42,860 nucleotides of DNA from Bacteroidota bacterium (lineage in GTDB: Bacteria > Bacteroidota > Bacteroidia > B-17B0 > Aurantibacillaceae): assembly GCA_013816895.1 (NCBI GenBank), contig JACDDR010000025.1:1-42860 (forward strand). Reading direction: 5' to 3'. Below are positions 5,653 through 33,355 of the stretch, in pieces (within the stretch, counting starts at the first letter, position 1; each line of letters opens with the position of its first letter). Under the pieces are notes generated by a model that was not told the DNA's origin, did not search any database, and saw nothing but the letters and a program-made list of their open reading frames with translations. Position numbers and translations under genes: made by a program.

Positions 5653-8600
5653 GTGAAAAAACACATCTCCCTCCTACTGCTTGCAGTTTCACTTAACTGT
5701 GTTTCTCAAAATATACTCACGTTCCGTATGACCAATTACGGAATAAAAAATTATACTACTAAAAAGGTAATTGTTAAGCCCATTTATTCATTTATAAAAG
5801 AAATAGGTAAAGGTTATTTTGCCTTTACATTAACCGGAAGTCCATCCGTGGCGAATGGAAGTACCATGCTGTTTGGAATTATGGATTCTACTGGGAAAAT
5901 ACTTGTAAAACCTAAATACAAAAGAGTATCTATGCTTAACGCTGATACCACATTCCTTTGTGCGATAGCCGGCAGGCCCGCAATGGATTTGTCAGATATA
6001 AAAGGAAATATACTGAATCCACAGAAATTTACATTTTTGAGTTGCGGAGAAACTTTTTGTCCACAGCAATTTATAGGATATCCACCAAACGCCAACGGCC
6101 GCAATATTAAATGCGCAATAATAAATTCTAAAGGAAAAGTTCTAACGGATGATCTAAATAGAAACGACATTCAGTTCATCACGGAAGATAAAGTGATAAA
6201 AGTAACTTTAAAGGACGGCACCAAAAATATTTATCAATTCGGAAAACAGCTCAACCCAGTTCCTTTAAAGAAAATTATTTCATTGAGCAATCTTAATTCT
6301 GAAGCTGTGTACCTTTACAAATGTTACGGGCTGGGAATAAATGGCGAATTCTATCGCTTCGCCCTTGAGGAAAAGGAAGGATTTCTCATAAGAACCTTAG
6401 CCACTGATGTGACAGACATTGAGGCGACTTATTTACAGAATGTTTATTTTGTAAAGGGCCAAAAAAACGCACTGAAACCATGTCTTGTTAAAACGGCTTT
6501 TAAAAACGATTCTATAATTGACACCCCCGTGAAACCCGTATATGATTCACTTTTGGGATATAACGAAGACGACAGGATTATTTATTGGGCTATGAGTAAA
6601 AACAATAAAAGCATTGTAATAACCAGTGAAGGATTAACTATAGATACTTTAAATAACAAATCGCTTAGTGATGCCATAGCGGATTACAAAGCGCGGCTCG
6701 CAAAAACAGAAAGATTAAAAAAAGCCAAGTTTGCTGTTTATCAGAATTCCAGCGATACCCAAAAATCCGCACTGGCAAACTATTGGGAAGATACTCTACT
6801 GACAGGTTTTATTTTTAGAGAAGCGAAAATTTATAATAAAAAATATTTTTCATGCATCGCTGATTCAAACGCTAATTGTACCCTACTCGACTCCAATCTT
6901 AAAACCATAATTCCTTATAATAAATTCTCAGACATTATTTTATCTCAGGATTCCAGATATGCTTCGGTAGCCAGCATGTATTATCCGGTGAGGATTAAAA
7001 CGTATCCAACCAACAACACCGATACAACTACGGAAGAAATACAAAGAAGAAAATGGGGGGTTTACGATTTAAAAAACGATAAAATGATCCTGCCATTTAA
7101 ATACGCTTATATCGGAAAAATAACAAAAGAAGGTTTCGCGCCGTTTAATGAAGGGGGGCACTTATATCCGCACGGCCAGGGGGGCTTGTTCGGCGTGCTG
7201 AATATTAACGGACAGATAATCTGCAAGCCGCGTTATACATTTATAGGTGATTTTAATGAAGCGCAACTCGCTCTTGCCATGGCAGGCGGGTTTAATGATG
7301 ACATCGTGTACGGCGGAAATTTTATAGCTATCAATAAAAATGGCGAAAACATTAAACCAAATTTCAGTGTAATAGAAGATCCACTGATTAAAACCATTGC
7401 AACAAAAACAAATGAAAGATCTGAATTTTTAAATTCGAAAGAATTAAATGAACTAATGCATTTTAAATCCGGTACATCAGAAAAACAAAAAGATTCTTTA
7501 TTTGCATTGATTTACGAAACGGTTCCTGTGGAGGATAATCACGCCAGTTTTACGGAATATGGAGAGGAAATAAATAATCCTTATACTAAATATGACATTT
7601 ATCAGCACAACAGCAAAGTAACTTTAGCAGAGCCGCTTCCTTCCAATGTTAAATACACTTACTTTCCCGAAGGCCCGGTTAAAAACTGGGGCAAGTATAC
7701 AGCCTACCAAAATAAGAACAACCTGCAGTACGATGTGTTTACGCACCCGGCCAATAGTCCCCTATCCGCTTTTTATTCAAAAGACAGTATTTATATCTCA
7801 GATATGGATACATTAAGGTTGGACTACGAATACCCTGGAATAGCCTCGCAAAACAATAAAGTATTAAATACAAAGTTTTTTTCCGACATGCGAACAAAAC
7901 AAGATTTGTATTATAAAATATATTCGGAAGGTCTCATTTATCATTATAACAGCTCTGACACCCTCACTTATAGCGTTAAGGGACAGTGTGACTCAATTGC
8001 CATTGTTATGCAGTTTTGCAATTCATGTTCCAGATCAACTGGTGAGATTTTCCAAAAAACGTATTATAAGAAAAACTTTGGACTGCTTGTTGATCAGGTT
8101 GTAGAGCTGCCGCCGGTTTATAAATACATCACTCAGGTGTCAGCCGATCAGTTAATTTTAATTGATACATTAAATAAAATTTATTCGTACGATATTAAAA
8201 AAAGACAAGCCTCTCCTTTAAACGAAACGTTTTCGCAATTTTTCAGCAAAGGAAACAATGGAGAAAGTCCAGATACATATACTCCTAAAATTCTAGTGAC
8301 AAAAACAAACGATAGAAAAGCCCATATTTATAGCCTGGCAAACGGCTTCAATTATCTGGCAGATAGCCTTAAACTCTTGAATCAGTCAGAAGGTGAGATT
8401 GTGGACAGCGACGGAAATGTTACTTTCGGCAACTATTTGAATTTCTATACGGAGCCTTATTATCGCAGCGATTATGATTTAGCGGTATTGAGGAATGATT
8501 CAATATTTAGTTTTTCAGCTCAGGGAATTCCATCGTTTAACCAAATGTTACCGCGCGCGCAAATTGTAAGAGTAAATCACGCGCTTACTAAAACAAATTC

Positions 8601-25640: not shown

Positions 25641-26429
25641 ATGCAATTGAATTTTTATAAATACCAGGGTACAGGTAATGATTTTATTTTGGTGGATAAC
25701 CGGCAACATTCAATTACTCTGACTCCTGAACAAATTAATTTTCTTTGTGACCGCAGGTTCGGCATAGGCGCAGATGGCTTAATGCTTCTTGAACTGGAGC
25801 CCGGCTTTGATTTTAAAATGGTTTATTTTAACAGCGATGGAAATCAAAGCAGTATGTGCGGAAACGGCGGCCGGTGCATCACCGCTTTTGCTTCACAGCT
25901 GGGCCTGATAACTGACAAATGCCATTTTCTCGCGATTGACGGCCCCCATGAAGCTACTCTACTTCAGGATGGTTTAGTCTCCTTAAAAATGGCAGATGTA
26001 AAAGAAGTTGAAATAAATACCGACCACTATTACTTAAACACCGGTTCGCCGCATTATGTAAAAGCCGTGAGCGATATAAAAAATTTTGATGTTGTAAACG
26101 AAGGAAAAAAAATACGTTACAGTGAGCGGTTTAAAGCTGAAGGCACCAACGTTAATTTTATTGAGAGAACCGATGAAGGCATTTTTGTAAGAACATACGA
26201 ACGTGGTGTTGAAGATGAAACTTTTTCATGCGGCACAGGTGTTACCGCTGCCGCTCTTGTGGCGGGAATGGAAGGAATGCTTACTACAAAAAATCATTGC
26301 CTCGTTAAAACGCTTGGCGGTAACCTGGAAGTGAAATTTGAAAAAGTTCTTGACCGTAATTTTTATAACATCTGGTTACAGGGCCCGGCGGAATTTGTGT
26401 TTAAAGGAACTATCGAATTAAAAGAGTGA
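25641..26429 (+). CDS. dapF: Diaminopimelate epimerase
   Basis: DapF interconverts LL- and meso-diaminopimelate, supplying lysine and peptidoglycan precursors. The two catalytic cysteines are Cys73 in NQSSMCGNGGRC and Cys197 in DETFSCGTGVTAAA. KYQGTGNDFILVDN at the N-terminus and GIGADGLMLL are also standard. At 262 residues it is normal length. It starts 10 bases after the membrane-anchored unknown, and its TGA overlaps the GTG start of the next gene (GTGA, 26426-26429), which suggests translational coupling. The presence of mltG and an OmpA domain protein in the window fits a diaminopimelate-type wall. Confidence 0.97.
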   Translation: MQLNFYKYQGTGNDFILVDNRQHSITLTPEQINFLCDRRFGIGADGLMLLELEPGFDFKMVYFNSDGNQSSMCGNGGRCITAFASQLGLITDKCHFLAIDGPHEATLLQDGLVSLKMADVKEVEINTDHYYLNTGSPHYVKAVSDIKNFDVVNEGKKIRYSERFKAEGTNVNFIERTDEGIFVRTYERGVEDETFSCGTGVTAAALVAGMEGMLTTKNHCLVKTLGGNLEVKFEKVLDRNFYNIWLQGPAEFVFKGTIELKE

Positions 26430-26980
26430 TCACTCAGAACATATTCATAACCATTGAAACAAAAGAATTCCAGCAGGATTTACTGTCGAAAGGAAGCTGG
26501 CTTGTGATTCTTCATGCAGAACGCTTTCCGCCACACGCGGGCCTCTTGTTCAACGGCAGTTACAACTCTTTAACTATCAAAGAAGCGGAATTAGATATTA
26601 ATAAAGAAGTTCTTTTTAAAACCATTTCTCAAAAAAAAATAAAGAGTTTTCTTCTGAAACTCCTCCCTCATCCTGTTTTCAGTCTCGATCATCAAAAAGA
26701 AATGTTCCAGGAGGAATTAAAAAAAGCGGGTTCAGTAAAACATAATCAAGCCACCTGTCTTAGTCCAATTAAACTTTTCTTTAAAGATTTTTATGGCATT
26801 CAGTCTGCCCCTGAAGAATTATTATTTGATTTCATCCGACAACTAGTCGGAAACAGTTATGTTGAATACGCCTTAAGCCTCCACATTCAGGCAGTTAACG
26901 GGATTGACTTACCCTTTTACACGCATGAAGAGCTTAACGAAAAAATAAAAACCGAACGTCAAACATATTATAGCAACTGA
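26426..26980 (+). CDS. Protein of unknown function, translationally coupled to dapF
   Basis: I do not recognise a family. The 184-residue product uses a GTG start at 26426 inside the dapF stop (GTGA). There is no signal peptide or transmembrane helix. It is helical in the second half, with hydrophobic and basic residues (KKIKSFLLKLLPHPVFSL, LFDFIRQLVGNSYVEYAL). The N-terminal part has strand-like ITIETKEF and SWLVILHAERFPPHAGLLF; the latter, ending in a PPHAGLL turn, is the most distinctive segment. Its stop overlaps the ATG of the acetyltransferase by one base, so it is embedded in the co-translated run. Function unknown. Confidence 0.72.
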   Translation: MITQNIFITIETKEFQQDLLSKGSWLVILHAERFPPHAGLLFNGSYNSLTIKEAELDINKEVLFKTISQKKIKSFLLKLLPHPVFSLDHQKEMFQEELKKAGSVKHNQATCLSPIKLFFKDFYGIQSAPEELLFDFIRQLVGNSYVEYALSLHIQAVNGIDLPFYTHEELNEKIKTERQTYYSN

Positions 26981-27510
26981 TGTTTTTAAAATCCAAACAT
27001 ATTCATTTACGGGCTGTAGAGCCTCAAGACGCTGAACTACTGTACGAATGGGAAAACGACCGAAGCATATGGGCGGTAAGCAATACACAGATTCCCTTTA
27101 GCAAATTTGTATTGGAAGAATTCACCAACACTTCACATCAGGATATTTATACTAATAAGCAACTACGTCTGATGGCAGTGGAAGCCGCGAGCGGAGAAAC
27201 CATAGGCTGTATTGACATTTTCGAATTTGATCCGCAGCATGCGCGTGCGGGAATTGGAATTTACATTCATAAAAATTTTCGGGAAAAAGGGCTTGCCAGC
27301 GAATGCCTCGAACTTGTTTCAGATTACGCCTTTAAAACACTTCACTTAAAACAGATATTTTCCCATATAAGTGCCAGCAATGTGGCAAGTGTAAATCTTT
27401 TTGTGAAAGCAGGCTTTGAAAAAACGGCGCTGAAAAAAGCATGGCATAAAACCGCTTTAAATATGTTTGAAGATGTGTGGTTTCTCCAACTCATAAATTA
27501 CGGTGAGTAA
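26980..27510 (+). CDS. GNAT-family N-acetyltransferase, RimJ/RimL-like
   Basis: The 176-residue product begins MFLKSKHIHLRAVEPQDAELL, the standard opening of RimJ/RimL-type acetyltransferases. The acetyl-CoA pyrophosphate loop is in GIYIHKNFREKGLASECLEL near residues 90-110, and the C-terminal NVASVNLFVKAGFEK block completes the GNAT fold. It should acetylate an amine in the cytoplasm; the substrate could be a ribosomal protein, antibiotic or small molecule and cannot be read. It shares one base with the preceding stop (TGATG), and the next gene starts at a GTG inside its last codons, an 8-base overlap. Confidence 0.92.
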   Translation: MFLKSKHIHLRAVEPQDAELLYEWENDRSIWAVSNTQIPFSKFVLEEFTNTSHQDIYTNKQLRLMAVEAASGETIGCIDIFEFDPQHARAGIGIYIHKNFREKGLASECLELVSDYAFKTLHLKQIFSHISASNVASVNLFVKAGFEKTALKKAWHKTALNMFEDVWFLQLINYGE

Positions 27511-29554
27511 AGCCCTGCACATACTTTCAATTGCCGTTCCAATTCTTTCACTCGCATTAACGCTATGCGACTATAACTCAAAAAAAGAAAAAAAAAATAT
27601 TCCCGCAGAACCCGTTTCTGCTTATCTCAATCATTCCGATTCCGCTAAATATGTTGGCATGAACACCTGCAAAGGTTGTCACCAGAAGATTTACAACACC
27701 TTTATTGAAACCGGGATGGGCAAATCCTTTGACATTGCCACGCGTAAAAAATCATCGGCCGATTTTACCAAAGCCAGTGTGTTTGACAAGATTTCGGATT
27801 ATCATTACCTCGCTTCATGGAAGAACGATAGTCTGTTTTTTAAAGAATACCGGGTTCAGCAAGGTGATACCATTCATTCGAGAACCGAGCAGGTAAATTA
27901 TATCATAGGATCAGGTCAGCATACCAATTCACACATTCAAAACGTGAATGGTTATTTTACGCAAATGCCAATGACCTTTTACACGCAAAAAAAACACTGG
28001 GATCTACCACCGGGATTTGAAGGTGGATTCAACACGCATTTCACCCGAAAAATTGGCCTGGAGTGCATGAGCTGTCATAACGGCTATCCGGACTTTGTAG
28101 TTGGCTCTGAAAATAAATACCGCAGTGTGCCCCGCGGCATCGATTGTGAACGGTGTCACGGACCCGGCAGTGCGCATGTGCAACAACGTTCAACAACCGG
28201 GATTGTTGATACATCTTTATACATTGATTACTCCATTGTAAATCCTGCTAAACTTTCCATCGATCTTCAGTTCGATATTTGCCAGCGCTGTCACCTGCAG
28301 GGAAACGCTGTTTTAAAAGAAGGGAAATCATTTTACGATTTTAAACCCGGTAAAAAACTCAGCGATTTTCTTTCTGTTTTTCTTCCCAAATATAAAGGAG
28401 CAGATGATGAATTTATAATGGCATCACACGCCGACCGTTTAAAACAAAGTCCCTGCTTCATACAGTCTTTGAAAAAAGCTAAAGACAATAAAAGTTTGCG
28501 TCCCTATAAAGATGCAATGACATGTATCACATGTCATAATCCGCATGTGAGCGTGAAACACACAAATACCAACGTTTTTAACGACGCCTGCAACGGTTGT
28601 CACAAGGCCTCCGGGAAATCGCAGCTTCCATGCACCGATAAAAATATTGTGGCTGCGAGAAATTCAAAACCCGGTCACGCGCCTGAAAAATTTAAAAACT
28701 GTGTCAGTTGTCACATGCCTGTTTCGGGCGCAACAGATATTCCACATGTTTCTGTTCATGATCATTATATCAGGAAACCCGTTACTGAAAAAGAAAAAGA
28801 AAAAATTAAAACCTTCCTTGGATTATATTCCATCAATGAAAAAAATCCTGACAGATTAACCCGTGCCAAAGCCTACATCAATCAGTATTCCAAATTCGAT
28901 CAAAACCCTTCATTTCTTGATTCCGCGCAGGCATTATTAAAAGACGATAACATCATGGATCTTTACAAAAACATAAGACCCTTACTGGAACTTAACTTTA
29001 TAAAACAGGATTACAAGAACCTATTGGCACTGATAAACAGGGCAGGTGAATTAAAATGTTTAAATACATTGTTTATTAAATCATCCTATGATAACGCCGA
29101 TGCATGGGCCTGTTATCACGTTGCGGAAGCCAATTATTATACAGGCAATATTACAAACTCCTTGAAATGGTTCCGTGGGGCTATTAAACTCGCGCCTTAT
29201 GTACTCGACTTCCGGAATAAATTTGGATCGGCGCTGGCGGCTACGAACGATATGAAGGCAGCTTCTGATGAATTTGAGTTTATTTTAAAAGAAAACCCCA
29301 AACATGTTTCCGCATACACCAATTTGGGCTTCATTAAACTCCGGCAAGGCTTCCCTGCTGAGGCGATACGATTATACACAATTGCTGTTAAAATAGATCC
29401 CGACTATGAACCATTATTATTAAATTTAGCGGGCTATTATGCTTTTCAAAAAGATAAAAAACAGGCGGTAATTTATCTTCAAAGAATTCTGAAAAAAAAT
29501 CCGGGTAACCAGAAAGCAAAAATGGCGTTACAACAAGTGAACAGTTTGATATGA
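27503..29554 (+). CDS. Seven-heme c-type cytochrome with C-terminal TPR repeats, probable lipoprotein
   Basis: The 683-residue product (GTG start) opens with a hydrophobic signal ending LTLCDYNSKK, so Cys22 is a likely lipidation site. Seven CxxCH heme motifs follow: CKGCH (residues 56-60), CMSCH, CERCH, CQRCH, CITCH, CNGCH and CVSCH, the last near residue 400. Spacing and HGPG/HNPH contexts resemble the cytochrome c554/NrfA-like multiheme group. From about residue 540, four TPR units (ANYYTGNITNSLKWFRGAIK, LGFIKLRQGFPAEAIRLY) form a helical protein-binding tail. Electron transfer in the periplasm or at the outer membrane is inferred; no terminal reductase or maturation gene is seen. It overlaps the acetyltransferase by 8 bases and mltG by 4, an unexpected place for a heme protein. 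Confidence 0.9.
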   Translation: MSKALHILSIAVPILSLALTLCDYNSKKEKKNIPAEPVSAYLNHSDSAKYVGMNTCKGCHQKIYNTFIETGMGKSFDIATRKKSSADFTKASVFDKISDYHYLASWKNDSLFFKEYRVQQGDTIHSRTEQVNYIIGSGQHTNSHIQNVNGYFTQMPMTFYTQKKHWDLPPGFEGGFNTHFTRKIGLECMSCHNGYPDFVVGSENKYRSVPRGIDCERCHGPGSAHVQQRSTTGIVDTSLYIDYSIVNPAKLSIDLQFDICQRCHLQGNAVLKEGKSFYDFKPGKKLSDFLSVFLPKYKGADDEFIMASHADRLKQSPCFIQSLKKAKDNKSLRPYKDAMTCITCHNPHVSVKHTNTNVFNDACNGCHKASGKSQLPCTDKNIVAARNSKPGHAPEKFKNCVSCHMPVSGATDIPHVSVHDHYIRKPVTEKEKEKIKTFLGLYSINEKNPDRLTRAKAYINQYSKFDQNPSFLDSAQALLKDDNIMDLYKNIRPLLELNFIKQDYKNLLALINRAGELKCLNTLFIKSSYDNADAWACYHVAEANYYTGNITNSLKWFRGAIKLAPYVLDFRNKFGSALAATNDMKAASDEFEFILKENPKHVSAYTNLGFIKLRQGFPAEAIRLYTIAVKIDPDYEPLLLNLAGYYAFQKDKKQAVIYLQRILKKNPGNQKAKMALQQVNSLI

Positions 29555-30588
29555 GTACCAGAAAAAAAACGCGTTGGATATTATATATAGTCGTTATTTT
29601 ATTGGCTGCCGGAGGCTTTTATATTTATCGCGAATTCTTTGGCCCATCTGTAAAACTCAATAAGAACTATACATTTGTTTACATTGAAACAGGTGATAAC
29701 CTTGATGATGTAGCCGAACAGGTAAATTCAGAAAAGATAATTGAAGACGTAAAAGCATTCCGCTGGCTGGCTGGTAAAATGGAACTCGAAAAAAACATTC
29801 ATCCCGGCAAATACCGTATTATTAACGGCATGAGCGTCCGGCAGATCATTAACCTTATTAAATACAGCAAAGAAGAAAAAGTAAAACTCACTTACAATTC
29901 TCAAATTCATAACCTTGACGAATTTGTGACCTATACAGCTGACAAGCTTGAAATGAATGAGGGAGAAATCGAGGATTACCTGAGCGATGACAAAAAACTC
30001 AATGACAAATTCGGACTTGATCCCGATAACGCATTCGCATTGATTACGCCGGGTGTATATGAAGTAAGCTGGGCTTTAAACACAGACGATTTATTTGAGC
30101 TACTCAGCAAAAAATACCGGGAGGTGTGGAATGACAAGCGCCTTGCCAAAGCAAAGAAATCGGGATTCTCTGTTCCTGAAATAATTACGCTTGCTTCTAT
30201 TGTTCAGAATGAAAGCAGCATTGAAAGCGAACAGCAAAAAATCGCAGGTGTTTATATTAACCGTTTAAACAAGGGAATGTTACTGCAAGCCGATCCTACA
30301 TTAAAATTTGCGAATAAAAACTACGACGCACAACGCGTTTGGGATACCGATAAGGAAAGTAATTCGCCTTACAATACCTATAGATTTAAAGGCCTCCCGC
30401 CAGGGCCGATAAGTCTCGTAGGCACCCAGGCCATTGATGCAACATTAAACTACAGTAAGCACAACTATATTTTCTTTTGCGCGAAGTGCGAACTCAATGG
30501 TTATTCAGATTATTCAAACACTTACGAACAACACAGAAAATTTGCTGACAAGTACCAGAAAGCCATGGATAAGCGGGGGATTAAATAA
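29551..30588 (+). CDS. mltG: Endolytic peptidoglycan transglycosylase MltG (YceG family)
   Basis: MltG cuts nascent glycan strands in the inner membrane and sets their length. The 345-residue product has an N-terminal transmembrane helix at about residues 9-25 (WILYIVVILLAAGGFYIY) and a LysM-like part. The catalytic domain has ASIVQNES with the conserved Glu221, then IAGVYINRLNKGMLLQADPT, NSPYNTYRFKGLPPGPIS and a terminal FCAKCELNGYSDYS. Relatives usually read ASIVEKET, so the first acidic residue is Gln here while the second, likely catalytic, one is kept. The start ATGA overlaps the cytochrome gene stop by 4 bases. The neighbours dapF and the membrane anchor suggest a wall-synthesis context. 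Confidence 0.95.
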   Translation: MSTRKKTRWILYIVVILLAAGGFYIYREFFGPSVKLNKNYTFVYIETGDNLDDVAEQVNSEKIIEDVKAFRWLAGKMELEKNIHPGKYRIINGMSVRQIINLIKYSKEEKVKLTYNSQIHNLDEFVTYTADKLEMNEGEIEDYLSDDKKLNDKFGLDPDNAFALITPGVYEVSWALNTDDLFELLSKKYREVWNDKRLAKAKKSGFSVPEIITLASIVQNESSIESEQQKIAGVYINRLNKGMLLQADPTLKFANKNYDAQRVWDTDKESNSPYNTYRFKGLPPGPISLVGTQAIDATLNYSKHNYIFFCAKCELNGYSDYSNTYEQHRKFADKYQKAMDKRGIK

Positions 30589-31640: not shown

Positions 31641-32546
31641 ATGTCGATAATTGTAAATAATATTTCTAAAACTTACGGCACTCAAAAAGCATTGAACAAT
31701 GTTTCTTTTGAGGTAGGAAGTAATGAAATTGTTGGGCTGCTTGGCCCTAACGGGGCCGGTAAAAGCACGATGATGAAAATTCTTACCTGTTACATCCCGC
31801 CTACAAGTGGTTCTGCAAAAGTGAGCGGTTTCGACATTCATGAGCAAACCCTTGAGGTAAGAAAACAAATTGGCTATCTGCCCGAGCATAATCCATTGTA
31901 TTTAGACATGTATGTGAAGGAATTTCTGGAATTTGTTGGCGGCATTTATAAAATAAAAAATCCGAAAAATCGGGTTAAGGAAATGATAGAACTTACCGGT
32001 TTGCAGGTTGAGCAGAACAAAAAAATCGGCGCTCTGAGCAAAGGTTACCGCCAACGTGTTGGATTGGCGCAAGCAATGATTCACGATCCAAAGGTTTTGA
32101 TTATGGATGAGCCTACTACCGGACTTGACCCGAATCAGCTGGAAGATATCCGCATGCTGATTATTTCACTCGGCAAACACAAAACCGTTATGCTTAGCAC
32201 GCACATCATGCAGGAAGTAGAGGCAGTGTGCAAAAAAGTGATCATTATTAATAAAGGAGAAATTGTAGCGAATGACGAAACAAAAAATCTTCAGAAAAAC
32301 TCCACACGCCAGGTTATTACTGTGGAATTTGACAAACTAATCGACCTTGAAAAAATAAAAAATATTCGCAACATCCAGGAAGTAAAAAACATGGGGGGCA
32401 ACATCTGGCAATTATTGTCAAACTCATCGGAGGATATGCGAAAAGAAGTTTTTGACTTTGCGGTCGCCAACAAGCTGAGTGTTCTTACACTGAACAAAGA
32501 GGAACAACGTATGGAAGATGTGTTTAAAGAACTTACGAAGGATTAA
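31641..32546 (+). CDS. gldA: ABC transporter ATP-binding protein, GldA-type
   Basis: The 301-residue ATPase has the Walker A motif GPNGAGKST at residues 35-43, a Q-loop, the signature LSKGYRQRVGLAQAM near 132, Walker B LIMDEPTTGLDP near 152 and the H-loop in STHIMQEVEAV. Stretches such as YIPPTSGSAKVSGFDI, GYLPEHNPLYLDMYV and INKGEIVANDE match GldA, the ATPase of the GldA-GldF-GldG transporter linked to gliding in flavobacteria. The gldF/gldG permease genes are not in the window. The last bases of the gene (TTAA at 32543-32546) also encode the stop of the convergent GldN-like gene. Confidence 0.92.
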   Translation: MSIIVNNISKTYGTQKALNNVSFEVGSNEIVGLLGPNGAGKSTMMKILTCYIPPTSGSAKVSGFDIHEQTLEVRKQIGYLPEHNPLYLDMYVKEFLEFVGGIYKIKNPKNRVKEMIELTGLQVEQNKKIGALSKGYRQRVGLAQAMIHDPKVLIMDEPTTGLDPNQLEDIRMLIISLGKHKTVMLSTHIMQEVEAVCKKVIIINKGEIVANDETKNLQKNSTRQVITVEFDKLIDLEKIKNIRNIQEVKNMGGNIWQLLSNSSEDMRKEVFDFAVANKLSVLTLNKEEQRMEDVFKELTKD

Positions 32547-33355
32547 TCCTCGTAAAGGTCGCTCTCACTGTTATTTATTTTTCCCTGGATCACATCGCTC
32601 TCCATTGATGCTTCGCTGTTATAGGTAGCTTTAACAGACCTTCCAAAAATATTACTCTGCTTGCTGATCCTGGAAAAGTAATATTGATTTTGTAAAGCAT
32701 ACGCATAACTTATTCTTTTAGAGTCCTTAATATTCCTGGCTTCGAACAGGTTGAGCAATTCATTCCATTCGCGGTAATACAGCCAGAAAACCGGCCGTAT
32801 GCGCTCGCTCTTTTTATCATAGATCAGCGGCGCAAATGCAATAATTCGTTTTTCGAGTTTCCCGCTATAGCTGTTTATGAACCAATCCTCCTTCAACAGG
32901 TACGTTTTAATATCAGTATTCTGAAGATAACGGCTTTCAATTTTTATCACTGTTGTTTCGTTCCCTGATGCATCGAATGTAACTGTTGTAATTGTATCCT
33001 TTATTTTTAGCAAGCCCGTTAACTCGGCTTCAGTAAGACGGTTTTTTTCAGAAGCGTTAAAATCATCACTCATGAAAGCATTTAGTTTCATTTCAAACAA
33101 TCCGAATTTTATCACTTCAAAAAAACCAATGTTCACACATTTATTATTGGTGGCCAGCAATTCCTTATTTTGCTTGTTCTCAAGACTAATGCTGCGCCAT
33201 ATTCTCTGGCCTTTAAAAATGGAATTTGGTTTAATTGAATCCTTCTTTATTCCGCCTTTATATTTTTTATCGGCAAAGCAGTCCTTCACATTAAATTCAT
33301 AAGTGCCAGGCGTTTCTACCCCGCCTCCACTCTGGGCAGAAGCTTTAAACGACAC
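32543..33355 (-). CDS. GldN/PorN-like protein (type IX secretion-associated), orphan copy
   Basis: The 270-residue frame resembles GldN, a periplasmic ring component of type IX secretion. SIFKGQRIWRSISLENKQNK matches the VxWSKRVWRxIDLREK block, FFEVIKFGLFEMKLNAF the next, YLLKEDWFINSYSGKLEKRI and RPVFWLYYREWNELLNLFEA the core, and ESDLYED the usual EHDLWE-like end. GTG at 33355 is the first ordinary start, but it cuts the signal peptide. In-frame codons upstream to about 33388 read IKKLIYILSFLV and complete a signal ending in ASAQ, so translation probably begins upstream at a non-ATG codon such as ATC or CTG. A TATATTTA box is at 33392-33399 on this strand. It converges on gldA with shared stop bases. 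Confidence 0.75.
   Translation of the reverse strand: MSFKASAQSGGGVETPGTYEFNVKDCFADKKYKGGIKKDSIKPNSIFKGQRIWRSISLENKQNKELLATNNKCVNIGFFEVIKFGLFEMKLNAFMSDDFNASEKNRLTEAELTGLLKIKDTITTVTFDASGNETTVIKIESRYLQNTDIKTYLLKEDWFINSYSGKLEKRIIAFAPLIYDKKSERIRPVFWLYYREWNELLNLFEARNIKDSKRISYAYALQNQYYFSRISKQSNIFGRSVKATYNSEASMESDVIQGKINNSESDLYED

Follow-up and report, generated by a model that had tools for sequence, protein, structure and literature searches.

Relation to described multiheme cytochromes

As outlined in PMC6703420, OcwA from Thermincola potens (PDB 6i5b) is a nine-heme surface protein of a Gram-positive organism, with a three-helix bundle at its C-terminus. According to the same account hemes 2 and 5 are open and the protein has nitrite and hydroxylamine activity, heme 9 is His/Met ligated, and hemes 1-4 superpose on cytochrome c554. 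A beta-sheet domain at residues 75-156 is described there as common to OcwA and MccA, the latter having a heme-copper site (PMC6703420). For SirA, the account in PMC6976685 gives an atypical heme site of the CX12NKGCH type. In the part of the open-licence PMC literature covered here we recognised no description of a family that combines seven hemes with tetratricopeptide repeats (TPRs).

The protein described here is encoded in a window of 42,860 nucleotides (the whole stretch of DNA that was analysed) and is a so far uncharacterised protein of Bacteroidota, related to known multiheme reductases. When a profile of its heme-binding half was searched against the PDB, OcwA was found at E 8e-14, the decaheme conduit chain of 6r2q, which we take to be MtrA, at 6e-12, NrfA at 2.7e-7, and 6qvm, presumably OmhA, at 6.1e-7. 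Structural comparison by VIA-align, run as a second look at the Foldseek list, gave a Z score of 12.3 over 313 of 404 residues for OcwA and of 9.6 over 270 residues for 6qvm. MccA (Z 6.5 over 259 residues) and c554 (Z 4.6 over 149 residues) stayed below the tool's value of 8, and TvNiR reached 2.8. In resemblance to the heme half OcwA thus comes first, followed by OmhA and MccA. The AlphaFold2 (AF2) model of the heme half alone had a mediocre mean pLDDT of 69.3, and Foldseek returned no match to it at E 0.001; MccA was second at 0.074 and OcwA was not among the 50 matches listed. The profile and VIA-align results would place the modelled heme half in the OcwA/MccA/c554/NrfA structural superfamily, with the Foldseek result and the pLDDT of 69 speaking against it. 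Among Pfam models, Cytochrom_c3_2 and Cytochrome_C7 scored above their cut-offs, as did Cytochrome_C554 over residues 186-220 (29.1 bits, cut-off 20.8).

In both the window protein and OcwA a beta-sheet domain separates heme 1 from heme 2, and through OcwA this insert is also shared with MccA/SirA, the octaheme sulfite reductase (4rkm). There are differences as well. OcwA as described has nine hemes and a three-helix bundle, where the window protein has seven hemes, an arm of TPRs and probably a lipid anchor. In MccA/SirA the hemes number eight, one of them at an atypical site; no NKGCH occurs in the window protein. The undecaheme S-layer cytochrome of Carboxydothermus ferrireducens (6qvm) has eleven hemes and no TPRs. 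The original prediction had proposed comparison with the folds of c554, NrfA and hydroxylamine oxidoreductase. Both c554 (1bvb) and NrfA (3ubr) were recovered, the former by VIA-align and the latter in the profile search; they have four and five hemes, respectively, and lack TPRs. Membership of the NrfA family is contradicted by the absence of a CxxCK motif and of the NrfA Tyr feature and by seven CxxCH motifs instead of five hemes. Hydroxylamine oxidoreductase and its octaheme group have eight hemes, which does not agree with the constant number of seven motifs described below. The GSU2203 and DmsE decaheme NCBIfam models gave 55.9 and 39.7 bits, below their curated scores of 325 and 192.2.

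Gene and protein architecture

The open reading frame (27503..29554, + strand, as are all features of the gene and its cluster given below) starts with GTG and encodes a heptaheme cytochrome c-TPR protein of 683 amino acids. Its CxxCH motifs are CKGCH, CMSCH, CERCH, CQRCH, CITCH, CNGCH and CVSCH. The heme-motif DNA pattern TGYNNNNNNTGYCAY occurs 151 + 140 (291) times in the 4.09-Mb genome, compared to 108 + 115 (223) times for the same pattern read backwards as a control. The 291 occurrences correspond to about one per 14 kb with both strands counted, so seven CxxCH motifs in one frame within about 1 kb are far beyond chance. With its start at 27503 the gene overlaps the end of the upstream acetyltransferase gene (27510) by 8 bases, and with its stop codon, ending at 29554, it overlaps mltG, whose ATG is at 29551, by 4 bases.

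At the N-terminus a hydrophobic signal helix (27503..27568; residues 2-22 in the AF2 model) ends in Cys22, the presumed lipid attachment site, which is a Cys in 146 of 148 aligned rows. A canonical lipobox with Gly, Ala or Ser at -1 and a hydrophobic residue at -3 was found in 38 of these 146 rows. The window protein has a non-canonical Leu at -1, a position that is often Phe, Ser, Tyr or Gln in the other rows. Since the Cys is conserved and the -1 position is mostly non-canonical, lipidation of Cys22 is probable, not certain.

The C-terminal part (residues 449-681; 28847..29545) forms a helical arm with TPRs, as indicated by Pfam, AF2 and fold searches. The TPR_2 model scored 44.3 bits against a cut-off of 27. 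In the AF2 model (mean pLDDT 83.4 at full length) irregular helices span residues 451-523 of the arm, and four regular helix pairs, at about residues 532-665, are accompanied by a cap helix. Fold searches with the whole model were filled by TPR proteins and were uninformative for the heme half; a viral structure library likewise returned only TPR and Sel1 proteins. The seven heme motifs, the four TPR units and the overlaps with both neighbouring genes that had been read from the DNA earlier are thus confirmed, and the lipidation Cys proposed at the same time is conserved, albeit in a mostly non-canonical lipobox. The heptaheme gene product is probably a membrane-anchored periplasmic protein with a protein-binding arm.

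Conserved residues and candidate heme ligands

Relatives were aligned in 148 rows, not all of them distinct, after omission of a broken gene (L072) and a split frame (L131). In these two loci the cytochrome copies (L072, 5283-6569; L131, 2187-4148) lie in several frames, as if decaying or mis-assembled. Exactly seven CxxCH motifs are present in all 148 rows. The heme 1 motif CKGCH (residues 56-60; 27668..27682), found in every row, is followed by Met72 (27716..27718), a presumed distal heme ligand that is Met in 147 rows and aligns with a His of OcwA. Between hemes 1 and 2 lies the beta-rich insert (about residues 85-175; 27755..28027), which includes a GSGxxTxS motif and has AF2 strands at residues 92-167. 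The alignment further locates the heme 2 motif CMSCH (188-192; 28064..28078), a candidate open site by comparison with OcwA, c554 and MccA, and the heme 3 motif CERCH (215-219; 28145..28159), followed by His225 (28175..28177), another presumed distal ligand. The motifs of the remaining hemes are CQRCH for heme 4 (260-264; 28280..28294), CITCH for heme 5 (341-345; 28523..28537), followed by an invariant His348, CNGCH for heme 6 (363-367; 28589..28603) and CVSCH for heme 7 (400-404; 28700..28714).

Outside the motifs, H225, H348, H415, H421, R182, R312 and C318 are each kept in all 148 rows, and H309 in 144, with Gln in the other four. The segment H309-R312-S316-C318 (28427..28456) corresponds in the profile alignment to the HH281/282 region of OcwA and, with a numbering offset that we infer, appears to lie near the place of these two residues. 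C318 is an invariant non-heme Cys; it is also Cys in 18 of 18 further proteins (a comparison from which L218 was left out) and in a relative from Granulicella. A Sinorhizobium relative has Met at this position, and the OcwA alignment has no Cys opposite C318. The position of H309 is not kept in the Granulicella relative and that of H415 is not kept among relatives lacking TPRs, so the pairing of hemes and ligands is ambiguous across the wider family. An MccA-like copper site formed by C318 and a second Cys was considered and rejected, since a Cys between hemes 6 and 7 occurs in 137 of 148 rows and the pair is therefore not obligatory.

By comparison with c554 we assume that the position of Met72 serves heme 3 and that the His after heme 3, H225, serves heme 1. 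With this assignment no obvious conserved ligand remains for heme 2. By analogy with the related enzymes, heme 2 may be open and the protein may be an enzyme. Alternatively, it could be a plain electron carrier in which all seven hemes are six-coordinate and the TPR arm docks one fixed periplasmic redox partner, with no catalysis. M72, H225, H309, H348, H415 and H421 would be enough candidates to ligate six of the hemes, with C318 as a possible ligand of the seventh; the match to the decaheme conduit chain of 6r2q and the Cytochrom_c3_2 and Cytochrome_C7 hits also agree with a carrier. However, the closest fold in VIA-align is that of OcwA with its two open hemes, and the invariant non-ligand elements GSGxxTxS, R182, R312 and C318 suggest a pocket. 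We consider a plain carrier possible, if somewhat unlikely. Of the membrane-tethered electron carrier in the original prediction, the probable tether and the TPR arm stand, whereas carriage of electrons is one option only, given the open heme sites of OcwA.

Distribution and relatives lacking the TPR arm

The cytochrome is widespread in the bacterial family of the window: in tblastn searches 83 of 87 genomes (G000-G086, window included) gave a match at E 1e-130 or better. The exceptions are G031, with a fragment at a contig end, and G010, G056 and G072, with no matches or only matches at the level of the TPRs; in G010 the mltG match begins at base 1 of a contig, and G056 and G072 are only 66% and 56% complete. 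Among other families of the class 30 of 63 genomes gave a match at E 1e-60 or better, the match in one of these 30 (G142) being broken by stops. In an even draw over the phylum the heme-half profile matched 55 of 395 genomes at E 1e-15. Nineteen of these 55 had open frames of 356-482 amino acids only, and nine of the 19 that were examined encode seven hemes and no TPRs. The search of phages gave no match to the cytochrome.

Position 72 is His in all nine of these TPR-less proteins and Met in 39 of 41 TPR-bearing rows, the exceptions being His in the Sinorhizobium protein and Lys in L069. On a 50-row tree, which used 30 of the 148 aligned rows and left out L218, the presence of TPRs changed once, on a branch with 99% support; the tree has long branches and its root was not inferred. 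Gain or loss of the TPRs thus goes in step with Met or His at position 72, two TPR-bearing rows excepted.

The Granulicella and Sinorhizobium proteins, both plasmid-encoded and annotated as 'tetratricopeptide repeat protein', resemble the window protein in having a heme half plus TPRs, and the Granulicella protein also has the seven motifs and Met at position 72. They differ in their low identity of about 25% or less, in the residue at position 72 of the Sinorhizobium protein, and in their loci, where the neighbours are an arylsulfatase and an EAL protein.

The surroundings of the TPR-less relatives were also inspected. FG-GAP/ASPIC proteins are encoded near five of the nine (L204-L208), and the TPR-bearing loci covered by the same search gave no ASPIC match. 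GH30 enzymes occur at L205 and L207, a PAP2 protein at L206 and L208, and SusC/SusD-like genes, identified by eye only, near TPR-less relatives. At a different locus, L214 (6487-10478), two seven-heme proteins of the family, of 626 and 705 amino acids, are encoded in tandem.

Gene neighbourhood

The gene order at the locus is dapF, orf184, GNAT, cytochrome, mltG, a Trp_dioxygenase family gene and an ABC ATPase gene. The cluster includes dapF for diaminopimelate epimerase (25641..26429; E 1.2e-42), orf184 (26426..26980), a member of the conserved cluster without Pfam match, the GNAT acetyltransferase gene (26980..27510; Acetyltransf_3, E 7.7e-22) and mltG of the YceG family (29551..30588; E 7.8e-68). 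Close to the cluster, on the opposite strand (32543-33355), lies a gene of the GldN family (E 7.9e-33), assigned to gliding or type IX secretion.

Among loci of the window's family that could be tested on both sides, GNAT upstream and mltG downstream were both found in 28 of 40 and at least one of them in 36 of 40; for other families of the class these numbers were 6 and 15 of 26. In 12 loci of the window's family the cytochrome and mltG matches abut. Among doubly testable named loci both flanks were present in 24 of 69, at least one in 37 and neither in 32; these adjacency sets overlap, with some genomes behind the named loci counted in another set too. On a tree of 147 rows (138 different sequences; L060, identical to locus L027, was dropped here and kept in the adjacency counts) the position beside the wall genes changed 13 times, compared to a mean of 39 in shuffles. 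This fits an old position with repeated relocation, the change counts giving no direction. The cluster also exists without the cytochrome: 29 genomes in which the cytochrome was not found, a set that left out G111, G122, G135, G139 and G146 with no or doubtful match, gave 28 testable mltG loci. In 13 of these GNAT is the gene immediately before mltG, and in another 4 dapF without GNAT precedes it.

Twenty neighbours of relocated copies were scanned with Pfam. They include TyrS, 3-dehydroquinate synthase, BipA, MltA, WG-repeat and type IX-sorted proteins, and no respiratory proteins were among them. Searching 183 loci with CcmB, CcmC, CcmF, COX1 and an NrfD-type subunit from the window's own genome gave a single match, a ccmF about 3 kb from the cytochrome gene in L119. 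In the same locus genes for a HigB-type toxin and a probable antitoxin (6258-6986) separate the cytochrome from an upstream gene. A two-motif protein is encoded near the cytochrome gene in L101, and in L139 (8815-9975) the neighbour of a relocated cytochrome is MltA, whose lytic transglycosylase family differs from that of MltG. In ten loci (L119, L123, L127, L130, L132, L137, L138, L146, L152 and L153) a predicted secreted, beta-barrel-like protein of about 205 amino acids without Pfam match is encoded directly downstream on the same strand. As a conserved partner this protein was dropped for the window, where no such neighbour is present; a search of the own genome, which had no positive control, found no relative either.

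The downstream barrel, together with the resemblance to OcwA and the Carboxydothermus cytochrome, both surface proteins, could point to extracellular electron transfer, with the cytochrome as part of a cytochrome-porin path through the outer membrane. In the window, however, the neighbours are GNAT and mltG and no porin partner is found. A barrel of this size also looks too small for a heme wire, and at least two acidic residues at positions +2 to +6 after Cys22 occur in only 28 of 146 rows, which gives no clear surface-export signal. Extracellular electron transfer strikes us as quite unlikely.

Redox input into wall synthesis, with the protein sensing redox state or supplying it to MltG or its partners, would agree with the frequent wall-gene flanks, the limited number of changes on the tree and the copy beside MltA. 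Against it stand the loci without either neighbour, the persistence of the cluster where the cytochrome is absent, and other neighbours such as tyrS, 3-dehydroquinate synthase and BipA; a slow rearrangement of gene order would account for these observations. We regard such an input as highly improbable. The setting is conserved and not obligatory, and the link to the wall is one of position. For the cytochrome the wall cluster seems to be a location, not a role. The proposal that expression is tied to wall synthesis, or a role there, is not supported, given the 32 named loci with neither neighbour, the 13 relocations on the tree and the GNAT-mltG pairs in genomes taken to lack the cytochrome. 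Two outcomes that would have spoken against the original prediction were not encountered: the wall-gene setting is not peculiar to the window genome, and, far from always lying in respiratory operons, the gene had a match to the tested maturation and respiratory queries nearby in one of 183 loci. A role in cytochrome c maturation, with TPRs acting as in CcmH/NrfG, seems extremely improbable, because the TPR_CcmH_CycH model (PF23914) reached 27.8 bits, below its gathering cut-off of 42 and behind many other TPR models, and apart from the L119 ccmF no ccm gene was found beside the cytochrome in the tested loci with the CcmB, CcmC and CcmF queries.

Proposed function and significance

Genes read as ccmB, ccmC and ccmF are present on contig C81 of the window's own genome, and a single match each to COX1 and to the NrfD family lies on C109. 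The hemes can thus be attached, with the electron source elsewhere in the genome. Phylogenetic profiling against maturation and oxidase genes gave no information, as PF01578 is found in 69 of 70 genomes and COX1 in 67 of 69.

The reading that we prefer, and to which we give an even chance, is that the gene encodes a c-type cytochrome lipoprotein with seven hemes, which belongs to the OcwA/MccA/c554/NrfA superfamily, carries its TPRs in a C-terminal arm and acts as a periplasmic electron relay with either catalysis at heme 2 or transfer to a TPR-bound partner. The seven motifs, the anchor with its conserved Cys, the OcwA-like heme half with its beta insert, and the TPRs are read from sequence and models. 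The protein would be anchored to a membrane facing the periplasm, which in Bacteroidota would most likely be the outer membrane at its inner face. It would take electrons from periplasmic carriers there and pass them along hemes 1-7. A small molecule could then be reduced at heme 2, in a distal pocket lined by H309, R312 and C318, or a partner bound to the TPR arm could receive the electrons. In the TPR-bearing branch one heme would have a higher potential owing to Met instead of a distal His at position 72. The gene often travels with the dapF-orf184-GNAT-mltG cluster but does not depend on it.

A more specific form of this relay, which we hold to be unlikely, is an undescribed class of Bacteroidota redox enzymes. 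These would have a seven-heme, OcwA-like core in which an open heme 2 works with C318, which may be an axial thiolate or part of a Cys or Cys-metal site. The replacement of His by Met, raising the potential of one heme, would have arisen together with a TPR arm that selects the redox partner on the inner side of the outer membrane.

The role of the arm can be tested by way of the relatives that lack TPRs and of the alternation between Met and His at position 72. The presence of the gene in 83 of 87 genomes of its family, together with the naming of two plasmid relatives by their TPRs only, indicates that the repeat annotation probably conceals a conserved redox protein. Should heme 2 be open, a multiheme reductase would be encoded outside the respiratory operons of many bacteria that are presumed to be plain aerobes.
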